A stretch of 64,000 bases of DNA from Herbaspirillum sp. 3R11 (GTDB lineage: Bacteria > Pseudomonadota > Gammaproteobacteria > Burkholderiales > Burkholderiaceae_D). The stretch is from NCBI RefSeq assembly GCF_004563925.1, contig NZ_SPNJ01000003.1, positions 186,001 through 250,000 on the forward strand, in the 5' to 3' direction. Both the position numbers and the translations under genes were made by a program. The notes under the pieces are model-generated. The model searched no databases. It saw nothing but the letters and a program-made list of their open reading frames with translations, and had not been told where the DNA came from. Positions 59,744 through 63,264 of the stretch are shown one piece after another; the first letter of the stretch is position 1, and every line of letters starts with the position of its first letter.

Positions 59744-60241
59744 TCAGCCGCATTGCAGCTTCTGTTCCTTGCTCATGTTTTCCATCGCCTCCTTGATTTC
59801 GGCAGGCGACAGGTCTCGCTGATGCGTGGCGACCGACCAGCGATGGCCGAACGGATCCTCGAGCTGGCCGTAGCGGTCGCCCCAGAACATGTCAGCCAAG
59901 GGCACCACGACTTTCGCGCCGGCAGACTGCGCCTGGGCAAACACGGCGTCGGCATCCTCGACGTAGAGATGAACGACGACCGGAGAACCACCCAGCAGAT
60001 GCGGACCGCGCGAGCCCGCGCCCCATTGAGGCATTTCATCGACCAGCATCAACGGCGAATCGCCGATTCGCAAGAGCGCGTGCATGATCTTGCCATCCGG
60101 CCCCGGCAGCCGCGCCAGTTCAATGGCGCCGAACGCCTGTTTGTAAAATTCGATGGCTTGCGCGGCTCCGGCACAGATGAGGTACGGCGTCAGCGTATGC
60201 ATGCCGTCCGGCACCGCTTTAACTTGGGAAGAAGTGGCCAT
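59744..60241 (-). CDS. PhnB-like VOC-family protein
   Basis: Protein of 165 residues with a single glyoxalase-like fold: TLTPYLICAGAAQAIEFYKQ, then DSPLMLVDEMP and GDRYGQLEDPFGHRWSVATH, typical of the PhnB/YdhA-type VOC group. No metal or substrate is assigned. It lies alone between terminators, with a GGAGACA ribosome-binding site before the start. Confidence 0.85.
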   Translation of the reverse strand: MATSSQVKAVPDGMHTLTPYLICAGAAQAIEFYKQAFGAIELARLPGPDGKIMHALLRIGDSPLMLVDEMPQWGAGSRGPHLLGGSPVVVHLYVEDADAVFAQAQSAGAKVVVPLADMFWGDRYGQLEDPFGHRWSVATHQRDLSPAEIKEAMENMSKEQKLQCG

Positions 60242-60400: not shown

Positions 60401-61465
60401 TTACTCCTTGTCGCCAATCAGACGGCGTTGCTTGACCGCATCCGCCAGACCTTGCAGCACGCCCAGGCTTTCTTCCCAGTCGATGCAGCCGTCGGTGACG
60501 GATTGACCGTAGGTCAGCTCCTTGCCCGGCACCAGGTCCTGGCGTCCTGCCACCAGGTTGGACTCGACCATCACGCCGACGATGCGCGTGTCGCCGCCGG
60601 CGATCTGGCCGGCGATGTCGGCGCAAACCGGGATTTGATTCTCCGGCTTCTTCGAGCTGTTGGCGTGCGAGGCATCGATCATCAGGCGCGCCGCCAGGCC
60701 GCTCTTGGCGATGTCCTGGCAGGCTGCTTCCACGTTGGCGGCGTCATAATTCGGCGCCTTGCCGCCGCGCAGGATGATGTGGCAATCCTCATTGCCGGCG
60801 GTCGAGACGATGGCCGAGTGGCCGCCCTTGGTGACCGACAGGAAATGGTGAGGCTGCGAGGCCGCCTTGATCGCATCGACGGCGATCTTGATGTTGCCGT
60901 CGGTGCCGTTCTTGAAACCGACCGGGCACGACAGGCCCGAAGCCAGTTCGCGGTGCACCTGCGATTCGGTGGTGCGCGCGCCGATGGCGCCCCAGCTGAT
61001 CAGGTCGGCGATGTATTGCGGGCTGATCACGTCGAGGAACTCGGTGCCGGCCGGCAGGCCCAGTTCGTTGATGTTGAGCAGCAGCTCGCGCGCGGTGCGC
61101 AGGCCGTCATTGATGCGGAAGCTGTTGTCCATGTAGGGATCGTTGATCAGGCCCTTCCAGCCGACTGTGGTGCGCGGCTTTTCGAAGTAGACGCGCATGA
61201 CGATTTCCAGCTCGCCTTTGAAGCGCTCGCGCTCGACCACCAGACGGCGGGCATATTCCATCGCGGCCTTGGTGTCGTGGATCGAGCAAGGGCCGATCAC
61301 GACCATGACGCGGTCGTCCTGGCCGTGCAGGATGCGATGCAGGGCCGTACGGCATTCTGCGGTGGTGCTCTCGACTTTTTCGCTGCCGCCGAATTCACGG
61401 ATCAGGTGCGAGGGGGGTGTCAGTTCTTTCATTTCTCGGATGCGTAGATCGTCGGTGCGCGGCAT
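60401..61465 (-). CDS. aroG: 3-deoxy-7-phosphoheptulonate synthase (DAHP synthase)
   Basis: Joins phosphoenolpyruvate and erythrose 4-phosphate, the first step to all aromatic amino acids. It is a type I enzyme of 354 residues. MVVIGPCSIHD (metal Cys), MRVYFEKPRTTVGWKG, VGFKNGTDGNI and ASHANSSKKP are the active-site blocks. An AGGAG ribosome-binding site lies 7 bases before the start. Which amino acid feedback-inhibits it cannot be read here. A Phe/Tyr-codon leader and terminator upstream argue for transcriptional attenuation by Phe and Tyr. Confidence 0.95.
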   Translation of the reverse strand: MPRTDDLRIREMKELTPPSHLIREFGGSEKVESTTAECRTALHRILHGQDDRVMVVIGPCSIHDTKAAMEYARRLVVERERFKGELEIVMRVYFEKPRTTVGWKGLINDPYMDNSFRINDGLRTARELLLNINELGLPAGTEFLDVISPQYIADLISWGAIGARTTESQVHRELASGLSCPVGFKNGTDGNIKIAVDAIKAASQPHHFLSVTKGGHSAIVSTAGNEDCHIILRGGKAPNYDAANVEAACQDIAKSGLAARLMIDASHANSSKKPENQIPVCADIAGQIAGGDTRIVGVMVESNLVAGRQDLVPGKELTYGQSVTDGCIDWEESLGVLQGLADAVKQRRLIGDKE

Positions 61466-61510: not shown

Positions 61511-61540
61511 AAAAAAAAACCGCCATCACTGGCGGTTTTT
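61511..61540 (-). terminator. Attenuator terminator in the aroG leader
   Basis: On the minus strand, ACCGCC-AGTGAT-GGCGGT is flanked by A6 and followed by nine T, ending 45 bases before aroG. It lies after the leader ORF's stop. Its 5' arm can instead pair with GGCGGT in codons 19-21 of the leader ORF, which would prevent termination. Confidence 0.85.
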
Positions 61541-61563
61541 TAGAAATTCGGTTTGGTCTCTAC

Positions 61564-61647
61564 TTACGAACGCTTACCGCTTTTCACCGCCGTGGGGCTG
61601 GAATAGCTAAAGTAAAAATAAAAGAAGTAAGCGCGGGCGAAAGACAT
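61564..61647 (-). CDS. Phe/Tyr-rich leader peptide of aroG (27 residues)
   Basis: ORF read toward aroG: MSFARAYFFYFYFSYSSPTA followed by VKSGKRS. Seven aromatic codons in a row (residues 7-13) plus F3 and Y15 give five Phe and four Tyr in 27 residues. CGCTTAC at codons 5-7 is complementary to GTAAGCG near its end (codons 24-26), and GGCGGT at codons 19-21 is complementary to the terminator's 5' arm. A ribosome paused on Phe/Tyr codons would mask the first and free the second, giving antitermination. No Shine-Dalgarno is evident. The peptide itself is probably not functional. Confidence 0.85.
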   Translation of the reverse strand: MSFARAYFFYFYFSYSSPTAVKSGKRS

Positions 61648-61689
61648 GGTGTGATCTATGCGAATAGTCGTTAGTTACAACAGAAAACG

Positions 61690-61718
61690 ATAATGCAACA
61701 ATTTCCCGGCTTTGGCAA
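61690..61718 (-). promoter_or_regulatory. Promoter of the aroG leader
   Basis: On the minus strand, TTGCCA (61713-61718) and CATTAT (61690-61695) are 17 bases apart. The start should be near 61683, giving about 36 bases before the leader ATG. The remaining gap to tldD shows nothing else. Confidence 0.6.
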
Positions 61719-61803: not shown

Positions 61804-63264
61804 TTATGCCGTACCACCCACCGTGACGCCATCGATGCGCAAGGTCGGCTGACCGACGCCGACCGGGACGCTCTGGCCTTCCTTGCCGCACACGCCGACG
61901 CCGGAATCGAGCTTCATGTCGTTGCCGATCAGCGAAACGCGGTTCAGCACGTCAGGACCGTTGCCGATCAGCGTGGCGCCCTTGACCGGGTAGGAAATCT
62001 TGCCGTTCTCGATCATGTAGGCCTCGCTCGCCGAGAAGACGAACTTGCCGTTGGTGATGTCGACCTGGCCGCCGCCGAAGTTGACGGCGTACAAACCGTT
62101 CTTCACCGAAGCCAGGATTTCTGCAGGATCCTTGTCGCCGGCCAGCATGTAGGTGTTGGTCATGCGCGGCATCGGCAGGTGCGCAAACGATTCGCGACGG
62201 GCGTTGCCGGTCACCGGCATCTTCATCAGGCGCGCGTTCATGGTGTCCTGGATGTAGCCCTTCAGGATGCCGTCTTCGATCAGCGTGGTGCACTGGGTCG
62301 GGTTGCCTTCGTCGTCAATGTTGAGCGAACCGCGGCGATCGGCGATGGTGCCGTCATCGACCACGGTGACGCCCTTGGCGGCGACGCGCTCGCCGATGCG
62401 GCCGGAGAAGGTGCTCGAGCCCTTGCGGTTGAAGTCGCCTTCGAGGCCGTGGCCGATGGCTTCGTGCAGCAGGATGCCCGGCCAGCCCGGTCCGAGCACG
62501 ACGGTCATCGGACCGGCTGGCGCAGGACGCGCGTCCAGATTGACCAATGCGGTGGAGACCGCTTCGGACGCATATTTTTCCAGCAACTCGTCGCTGAAGT
62601 AAGCATAGCTGTAGCGACCGCCGCCACCGCTGCTGCCCATTTCGCGGCGACCGTTCTGTTCGGCGATGACGGTGATCGACACGCGCACCAGCGGACGGAT
62701 ATCGGCGGCGATGATGCCGTCGCTGCGCGCCACCAGCACCACGTCGTATTCGCCGGCCAGGCTGGCCATGACTTGCACGACGCGCGGATCCTTGGCGCGG
62801 GCGATGCGTTCGATGCGTTCCAGCAGATTGACCTTGGCGGTCGCGTCCAATGAAGTCAGCGGATCATGCGGCAGGTACAGCGAACGACCGCCGTTGGGCT
62901 GCATGCTGCCGGCAATCTTGACGCGACCGGCGCCCTGGCGACCGATGGTGCGGGTTGCTGCAGCGGCGTCGAGCAGAATGGATTCCGAGATTTCATCCGA
63001 ATACGAGAACGCGGTCTTGTCGCCCGACACGGCGCGTACGCCCACGCCCTGGTCGATGGAGAAGCTACCGGTCTTGACGATGCCCTCTTCCAGGCTCCAG
63101 CCTTCGCTCTTGGTGAACTGGAAATACAGGTCGGCGTAATCGACCTTGTGCGTAAACATGGTGCCCAGTGTTTTCAGCAACTTGGCTTCGTCCAGGCCGA
63201 ACGGCGTGAGCAGGACGTCGCGTGCAATACCGAGCGCGCTGAGATTGGGTTCGAATGTTTTCAT
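61804..63264 (-). CDS. tldD: Metalloprotease TldD
   Basis: Subunit of the TldD/TldE (PmbA) zinc peptidase, which processes modified peptides and antitoxins. It has 486 residues. The metal motif is LLHEAIGHGLEGDFNRKG (HExxxH) near residue 260, and GGQVDITNGKFVFSASEAYM and the Gly-rich C-terminal region GDMKLDSGVGVCGKEGQ-type sequences follow. No tldE lies nearby. It lies 46 bases downstream of the nitrilase-family gene, the same pairing seen in many proteobacteria after yhdP. Confidence 0.95.
   Translation of the reverse strand: MKTFEPNLSALGIARDVLLTPFGLDEAKLLKTLGTMFTHKVDYADLYFQFTKSEGWSLEEGIVKTGSFSIDQGVGVRAVSGDKTAFSYSDEISESILLDAAAATRTIGRQGAGRVKIAGSMQPNGGRSLYLPHDPLTSLDATAKVNLLERIERIARAKDPRVVQVMASLAGEYDVVLVARSDGIIAADIRPLVRVSITVIAEQNGRREMGSSGGGGRYSYAYFSDELLEKYASEAVSTALVNLDARPAPAGPMTVVLGPGWPGILLHEAIGHGLEGDFNRKGSSTFSGRIGERVAAKGVTVVDDGTIADRRGSLNIDDEGNPTQCTTLIEDGILKGYIQDTMNARLMKMPVTGNARRESFAHLPMPRMTNTYMLAGDKDPAEILASVKNGLYAVNFGGGQVDITNGKFVFSASEAYMIENGKISYPVKGATLIGNGPDVLNRVSLIGNDMKLDSGVGVCGKEGQSVPVGVGQPTLRIDGVTVGGTA

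Follow-up and report, generated by a model that had tools for sequence, protein, structure and literature searches.

A putative ribosome-mediated attenuator with a phenylalanine- and tyrosine-rich leader upstream of aroG in Herbaspirillum and related bacteria

Introduction

The aroG gene of Herbaspirillum is very probably controlled by a ribosome-mediated transcription attenuator. The case is built from sequence, folding and comparison: upstream of the gene lie a promoter, a short leader open reading frame (ORF) crowded with aromatic codons, a set of alternative RNA pairings and an intrinsic terminator, the arrangement is conserved in relatives, and RNA strands 2, 3 and 4 of the pairing scheme covary. 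The ORF is rich in codons for the products of the pathway, the terminator lies between the ORF and the gene, and an antiterminator can form that excludes the terminator. From these features we infer the transcription start, translation of the ORF, ribosome stalling, the protecting role of the 1:2 pairing, termination in vivo and the identity of the relevant amino acids. The mechanism would be that of the trpL and pheL attenuators, placed here at 3-deoxy-7-phosphoheptulonate (DAHP) synthase, the enzyme whose reaction commits the cell to making aromatic amino acids. The aroG gene of E. coli is TyrR-controlled. As a group, the DAHP synthase genes of that organism are described as being under TyrR and TrpR (PMC11802643, accessible sections).

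The locus and its genome

The window, by which we mean the whole 64-kb stretch of Herbaspirillum DNA that was analysed and to which all coordinates refer, places the attenuator region on the minus strand between tldD (ORF 61804-63264) and aroG (Table 1). The aroG product scores 591.2 bits against the NCBIfam AroG model, whose cut-off is 568, and the gene has a ribosome site of its own, AGGAGA. A single AroG-type match is present in the 5.2-Mb genome; no type II DAHP synthase was found there, and the one further PF00793 protein is a KDO8P synthase. So far as these searches show, the leader heads the sole DAHP synthase gene of the genome. The helix-turn-helix model of TyrR (TIGR04381) has zero matches in the same genome, and among 14 control genomes it matches E. 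coli alone; in this respect the locus differs from the TyrR-controlled aroG of enteric bacteria. Many genera of the family carry AroG paralogues, with two or three matches in genomes such as G003, G111 and G148.

Two neighbouring hairpins were read by eye. Just past tldD and directly before the aroG promoter, a 13-bp inverted repeat at 61789-61739 (GCATTGAGTGACG and CGTCATTCAATGC, with one G.U pair and a 17-nt loop) is followed by GGTTTTTG, and is probably the tldD terminator. On the 3′ side of aroG, a GC-rich hairpin with a T tract (60367-60340) suggests that aroG is transcribed alone; a gene of the VOC/glyoxalase family follows at 59744-60241.

Table 1. Features of the aroG leader region in window coordinates
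Feature	Coordinates	Strand	Basis or content
Promoter	61690-61718	minus	-35 TTGCCA 61718-61713; 17-nt spacer; -10 CATTAT 61695-61690
Leader ORF, 27 codons, MSFARAYFFYFYFSYSSPTAVKSGKRS	61564-61647	minus	Conceptual translation of the sequence; aromatic run conserved
Strand 1	61620-61634	minus	Minimum-free-energy (MFE) pairing with 61584-61570; holds CGCTTAC 61633-61627 and the first aromatic codons
Strand 2, GGCGGTGAAAAGCGGT	61576-61591	minus	Antiterminator 5′ arm, with GGCGGT, GAAA and CGGT paired, in folds without the 5′ part
Strand 3	61530-61552	minus	Antiterminator 3′ arm: ACCG 61552-61549, TTTC 61546-61543, ACCGCCA 61536-61530
Intrinsic terminator	61511-61536	minus	ACCGCCA - GTGA - TGGCGGT; nine T 61519-61511
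aroG, DAHP synthase	60401-61465	minus	NCBIfam NF006723 AroG; Pfam PF00793

Leader ORF, promoter and predicted start of translation

The leader ORF stands apart from the rest of the window. Its putative sensing codons, 7 to 13, spell YFFYFYF (61629-61609), and with F3 and Y15 they bring the count to nine aromatics in 27 codons, as a preliminary description made from the letters of the window had stated and as we confirm; five of the nine are Phe and four are Tyr. None of the other 723 ORFs of 10-60 amino acids counted in the window, this one included in the total, exceeds five F, Y or W residues in eight, and the leader ORF has seven. That the window's leader would respond to Phe and Tyr is suggested by these codons only.

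The promoter named in the same description (TTGCCA and CATTAT at 17-base spacing) is borne out, and would start transcription near 61683. A generic promoter scan found one promoter against 1.1 in shuffled sequences, no excess over chance. In the window's family, a -35 element with at least five of the six bases of TTGCCA was found in 97 of 106 leaders and a spacer of 17 in 72 or 18 in 29 of the 106, counts that are biased upward because the best match was searched for; the -10 element, from the same search, is mostly CACTAT or TATAGT.

How the ribosome would enter the leader ORF is a more curious matter. No clear Shine-Dalgarno (SD) site precedes the ORF in the window, and an SD-like motif stands before only 6 of 107 leader ATGs in the family and 8 of 56 leaders from other families of the order. 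With 42 nt between the -10 element and the leader ATG, the window's leader RNA is predicted to begin with an untranslated stretch of about 35 nt that lacks an SD site, and most of the family likewise has a longer, SD-less untranslated stretch. Among the leaders from other families of the order, by comparison, 25 of 55 have an extended -10 element (TGnTAnnnT) ending 6-8 nt before the leader ATG, against a mean of 0.23 and a maximum of 3 in 500 trials with shuffled DNA, for which the wider range of 4-9 nt was allowed. These leaders belong to five families (f4, f22, f49, f43 and f39; examples are L124, L131, L231 and L238), and at such a distance their transcripts would start at or next to the ATG, so that the attenuator RNA is probably leaderless there.

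At its other end, the ORF of the window's lineage stops nine bases further 3′ than in most relatives, and a ribosome at the stop may therefore leave part of GGCGGT uncovered.

Alternative RNA structures and the proposed mechanism

The folding energy of the leader RNA is -43.9 kcal/mol; shuffled sequences give -34.2 +/- 3.6 kcal/mol (z -2.66), and 5 of the 200 do as well. In the MFE structure of the window's naked RNA, the 1:2 helix (61634-61620 with 61584-61570) coexists with the 3:4 terminator, whose arms are ACCGCCA and TGGCGGT (61525-61519); ACCGCCA doubles as part of strand 3 and as the 5′ arm of the terminator. The terminator stem and its nine T are found as the preliminary description had them, and so are two further elements that it had named: the complementary pair CGCTTAC and GTAAGCG (61577-61571), and GGCGGT (61591-61586), whose RNA form GGCGGU pairs in the folds with the ACCGCC of the terminator. 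A generic terminator scan does not list the 61536-61511 terminator, probably because A:U pairs extend the stem into the T tract.

It had also been proposed that these elements yield mutually exclusive 1:2, 2:3 and 3:4 structures. The alternative pairings stand, but the exclusion does not arise from the elements as first given, since GGCGGT shares no base with CGCTTAC/GTAAGCG. It lies inside the hairpin that those two segments form, where the MFE structure pairs GGCGG locally with CC.GCC (61601-61596). Both helices, though, are longer than first described. The MFE 1:2 helix exceeds seven pairs and takes in aromatic codons; the antiterminator is also longer and overlaps the 1:2 arm, in that 61584-61576 of strand 2 pairs with strand 1 as well, and because this segment is part of the 3′ arm of 1:2, the 1:2 helix and the antiterminator would exclude each other.

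Leaders from ten species were folded as well. With the 5′ part left out, as a mimic of a stalled ribosome, RNA ending at strand 3 forms GGCGGU-ACCGCC in 10 of 10 species. The inner antiterminator helices vary by species; those of the window pair GAAA with UUUC and CGGU with an ACCG that is conserved some 12 nt ahead of the terminator. When strand 4 is added, all ten switch to the terminator. In naked RNA up to strand 3, the 1:2 helix is absent from two of the ten folds (L066 and L101). At this length L066 has the antiterminator already, and the partner of strand 3 in L073 is a second GGCGG.

We can thus sketch a sequence of events that would couple tRNA charging to aroG transcription. RNA polymerase would start near the predicted site and make the leader RNA, on which a ribosome would translate the 27-codon ORF. 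If both Phe-tRNA and Tyr-tRNA are charged, the ribosome would pass the aromatic run and reach the stop codon, where strand 2 would be either covered or caught by strand 1; the 3:4 terminator would then form and transcription would stop near 61511. Lack of charging of either tRNA would stall the ribosome on codons 7-13, where it covers strand 1, and would leave strand 2 (GGCGGTGAAAAGCGGT) free to form the antiterminator with strand 3 (ACCG..TTTC..ACCGCC) ahead of the synthesis of strand 4; the terminator would be blocked and aroG would be transcribed. Since 1:2 and 3:4 form together without a translating ribosome, termination would be the default.

Another conceivable use of such structures is to gate the aroG ribosome site, or to leave an untranslated leader on which Rho acts. 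The aroG start lies only 45 nt past the T tract and, in 105 of 107 family members, has an SD-like site in front of it, as translational control would have it; yet nearly all of the family members listed have a T-rich tract behind the GC stem, and by eye strands 2-4 have no complementarity to the AGGAG site. We regard translational or Rho-mediated control as exceedingly improbable next to the attenuator.

Conservation in the window's family

An aroG match at E <= 1e-100 is present in 192 of the 195 genomes of the family. Upstream regions were taken for 110 of the matches, a non-random set made of the 30 best and of 80 chosen from the listed ones for genus spread, and in 107 of these 110 an aromatic ORF occurs together with a GGCGG-like strand 2 and a terminator of the form CCGCC..GGCGG-T. 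The misses are L084, which has no terminator, L109, and L097, which comes from the same genome as L098 and in which one differing base shifts the frame. In a set of 80 named loci, partly from the same genomes, all three elements are present in 78 (the failures are L166 and L192), and the loci that pass include Herbaspirillum, Collimonas, Janthinobacterium, Massilia, Undibacterium, Burkholderia, Paraburkholderia, Caballeronia and Cupriavidus. Conservation in relatives, to which the preliminary description had looked for a decision on its proposal, thus does not refute it.

The exceptions are of some interest in their own right. Two family aroG copies are without a leader, L084 (G013, 2.2 Mb) and L109 (G187, a genome with two aroG matches). 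In Candidatus Burkholderia humilis (L192) a frame shift after FYFYF carries the ORF past its usual stop, and the attenuator looks decayed, judging by its sequence. In L110, from a 1.7-Mb genome (G102, genus g28), the ORF is shortened, strand 2 reads GGTGG and the terminator is intact, possibly an eroding copy in a small genome.

At the nucleotide level, GGCGG is kept in 68 of the 69 aligned family leaders and is GGTGG in the remaining one, and AAACCGAA.TTC is the consensus in the family alignment A1. In some leaders the frame past the aromatic run is shifted (SSPRRW.. versus SSPTAVE..) while GGCGGT, the aromatic codons and the terminator stay; that GGCGGT is kept despite the shift argues that RNA rather than peptide is conserved there. 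Between -20 and -5 from GGCGG, the stretch TTTAGCNATTCCARCC is more conserved in the 69 leaders than codon needs would explain: TTT is kept at 0.96/1.00/0.97 and CC at 0.93/0.97. In an NAT codon, the first base varies, which turns Tyr into Asn, His or Asp, and the other bases mostly stay.

This extra conservation raises the thought that the region is a small RNA or small-protein gene whose transcript or peptide acts in trans, the terminator being its 3′ end and aroG being served by constitutive leak. A precedent of a sort is the Sinorhizobium trp attenuator RNA rnTrpL, leaderless and called a dual-function sRNA in the accessible sections of PMC10117765. The local CC.GCC/GGCGG hairpin seen in the MFE fold may, however, explain part of the excess; a trans-acting peptide would sit poorly with the frame shifts after the aromatic run; in the families read, the gene that follows encodes a DAHP synthase, as suits aromatic sensing in cis; and strands 2 and 3 covary (see below). 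A trans-acting gene in place of the attenuator is therefore very unlikely in our estimate, though slightly less so than gating of the ribosome site. In view of the conservation before GGCGG, the terminated RNA of an attenuator may also act in trans, like rnTrpL.

Covariation of the pairing strands

For the stems, in which the preliminary description had called for a search for compensatory changes, covariation is found among strands 2, 3 and 4 in two sets of leaders described below. All of the permutation and shuffle figures in this section are to be read with the relatedness of the leaders still in them. Since the GGCGG/CCGCC/GGCGG core is nearly invariant, the family alignment says little on pairing: RNAalifold finds little covariation in it (-0.39 kcal/mol), and the consensus structure lacks 1:2.

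A 1:3 control was significant in covariation tests on overlapping regions, and the comparison was therefore repeated with separate regions and more controls. In the redone family test, 1:2 complementarity beats 5000 of 5000 permuted partner sets (z -3.6), but the 1:3 control is equally significant (z -3.9), so that relatedness or composition contributes to the 1:2 result. The flanks of 2:3 give a stronger signal than 1:2 (z -7.8), and six other controls range from z -1.6 to +4.0. Because the 1:3 control was significant again, the covariation case rests on strands 2, 3 and 4. The 1:2 signal is not significant when only the 18 nt adjoining GGCGGT are used, and for the median leader 21% of the strand 2s of other genera pair better than its own. 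By eye, single lineages show compensation in 1:2, namely ACCTG/CAGGT (L066), ACCGG/CCGGT (L083 and L101), ACCCG/CGGGT (L103) and CGTTCAC/GTGAGCG (L035).

Outside the family, the bases beside the core were compared in 55 leaders (56 less L139, in which strand 2 was not found). Across strands 2, 3 and 4 they read C-G-C in 18 and T-A-T in 14 of the 55. Strands 2 and 3 are paired at this position, with G.U allowed, in 41 of 55 leaders against 31.7 on permutation, a count that none of 10000 permutations reached; one base further from the core, pairing is no commoner than on permutation (37 of 55 against 37.7). In alignment A2, which holds 59 leaders, 10 of them from the window's family, 98.5% of the 3:4 cells and 87.9% of the 2:3 cells are paired. 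For each of the two helices the A2 covariation score is reached by 0 of 500 shuffles and falls sharply when the partners are slid, and pairs changed on both sides do not rise above the shuffles (203 and 231 of 500). The GGCGG of strand 2 is nearly invariant across families as well.

Reach beyond the family and tryptophan-containing leaders

At E <= 0.01, a covariance model built from the window's family (R1) has matches in 137 of the 399 genomes searched in the order, and many of these matches extend over no more than the terminator part. Of the R1 loci read outside the family, all 18 that were fetched automatically and 38 of 40 chosen full-length ones are aromatic leaders before an aroG-type start. 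The motif GPCS.HD lies downstream in 16 of the 18 automatically fetched loci; the other two, L124 and L126, lack it, and their next ORF contains SHNTDDLRIREIKELSPPAHVMREF. Downstream of the leader in L259, MSPRTDDVR is visible in the sequence.

A second covariance model (R2), partly trained on leaders that it then matches, finds matches at E <= 1e-6 in 92 of 349 genomes of the order, in 15 families; with these strict filters the other 257 genomes have none. One family outside its training, f12, yielded genuine leaders at 4 of 4 loci read. Setting aside the R2 match in f21, leaders were read in 14 families of the order, the window's own and 13 others. Within the class but in other orders they were read in all four matching genomes of f63 and in the single one of f68. 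Outside the class, matches come from 6 genomes of f253, 8 of f256 and 1 of f260; leaders were read in 3, 3 and 1 of these, respectively, and we infer that these families are Alphaproteobacteria; f241 gave one weak partial match outside the class, apart from the loci read. In the later reading of 12 loci the AroG N-terminus is present in 11, and in L299 (f253) another frame had been picked. Many weak matches of either model (E about 1e-4 to 1e-2) cover only its terminator part; L247, L262 and the class-level loci inspected beyond f63 and f68 are not aroG leaders and are excluded from the counts.

Between families the aromatic codons stay while the surrounding nucleotides change, and this bears on whether the element might instead be a ligand-binding riboswitch or a protein-binding leader with an incidental ORF. 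Strong conservation at the RNA level and alternative structures are what such an element would also show, but the persistence of the aromatic codons speaks against it. In the window, moreover, tRNA alone reaches an Rfam gathering score; membership in Rfam Phe_leader (RF01859) was rejected at 23.4 bits against a gathering score of 55. An incidental ORF in a riboswitch or protein-binding leader is accordingly a reading to which we give hardly any credence. A weak hit to the alphaproteobacterial sRNA BjrC1505 (26.5 bits, cut-off 50), which hinted that Rfam might cover the element under that name, was dropped, since 11 leader loci from other families have no Rfam match at E <= 0.5.

The identity of the aromatic codons is itself lineage-specific. 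Trp codons occur within the densest 12 residues in 8 of 8 leaders of f22, 7 of 7 of f49, 4 of 5 of f3, 4 of 7 of f9 and 2 of 5 of f31, and in none of the 8 leaders of f4 or the 5 of f19. All 7 leaders read outside the class contain them. Going by these codons, leaders elsewhere perhaps sense all three aromatic amino acids.

Relation to known systems

The mechanism is known already, and a DAHP synthase gene preceded by a Phe/Tyr leader is no novelty either. What appears to be undescribed in the open-licence literature searched is the element of the Proteobacteria, together with its wide distribution, its Trp-containing forms and its SD-less or leaderless ORF; no description of a proteobacterial aroG attenuator was found there, which agrees with the earlier remark that none was known for aroG in betaproteobacteria. 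The studies of Vitreschak et al. 2004 and Panina et al. 2001 are said to treat mainly the gamma and alpha groups. Papers cited below by PMC number for their content were available in part, and the statements taken from them hold for the accessible sections.

The aroR-aroF leader of Corynebacterium glutamicum, the most similar system for which a response has been reported, resembles the present one in architecture only, as a Phe/Tyr leader before a DAHP synthase gene. Its transcript is reportedly leaderless, a point credited to Neshat et al. 2014. The published aroR leader carries Phe-Tyr-Phe, and transcription is reported to increase when limiting Phe makes the ribosome stall (PMC11802643, PMC4046766); it is reported to be responsive to Phe and not to Tyr (PMC11802643). 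C. glutamicum belongs to another phylum, it has a second DAHP synthase gene besides aroF, and the motif has only three aromatic codons, whereas the window's leader has a longer aromatic run, a GGCGG/CCGCC/GGCGG core common to many proteobacterial families, and the only DAHP synthase gene found in its genome downstream.

The phe attenuators of E. coli follow the same hairpin logic. Both pheL-pheA and pheM-pheST have a Phe-rich leader ORF and attenuation by tRNA charging (PMC11802643), which they share with the system proposed here, and their target genes differ. A motif upstream of Acholeplasma aroF, uORFC-13-1, is likened here by description and not by sequence: it too lies before a DAHP synthase gene and combines a predicted upstream ORF holding one or more Phe codons with a terminator, but its 24 representatives come from one genus and environmental sequences, and at least one Phe residue is all that defines the ORF (PMC8632094). 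In two Vibrio species, attenuators were predicted before aroA-Ialpha-Y > tyrA (Merino database; Table 7, PMC1173090), again at a DAHP synthase gene in Proteobacteria, but in a different operon and lineage and with no leader peptide described in the accessible sections. The leader RNA of Sinorhizobium meliloti trpE (trpL, rnTrpL) shares with the probably leaderless members the property of being a leaderless proteobacterial attenuator RNA, and is a Trp leader instead (PMC10117765); this likeness, too, is by description.

As for regulators, a survey of 196 genomes reports TyrR and TrpR as absent outside the gammaproteobacteria, and mentions attenuation of trpEDCBA and pheA in gammaproteobacteria besides the TyrR and TrpR regulons (PMC5343134). 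The main text of a survey of premature terminators makes no mention of aroG, aroF or DAHP (PMC2965389).

Outlook

Several implications follow, of unequal firmness. Tentatively, and with the balance of probability tilted somewhat against it, one may picture a single module of ancient origin that has been inherited along with aroG in Alpha-, Beta- and Gammaproteobacteria. In one leader, often translated from a leaderless transcript, it would sense how far the tRNAs for Phe and Tyr, and in many lineages also for Trp, are charged, and it would set entry into the whole aromatic pathway in bacteria that resemble this one in having no detectable TyrR. The Trp-codon and likely leaderless forms pose the question of whether one leader integrates three amino acids. 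The leader could also serve as an aromatic-responsive part for engineering.

Existing physiological data may find an explanation here. The leader is carried by Cupriavidus agavae (L220), which we take to be a near relative of Ralstonia. In Ralstonia solanacearum, loss of one of the two genes aroG1 and aroG2 raises a lacZ fusion to the other 10-20 fold, and 1 mM Phe lowers the fusions 2-3 fold in single-aroG backgrounds and about 1.2 fold in the wild type, as reported in the accessible sections of a paper whose main text does not contain the words attenuat- or leader (PMC6379268). If the leader is present there, it may explain this repression of aroG by Phe. More broadly, the literature searched held no answer to how betaproteobacteria control the DAHP synthase step, and a conserved attenuator offers a simple one.
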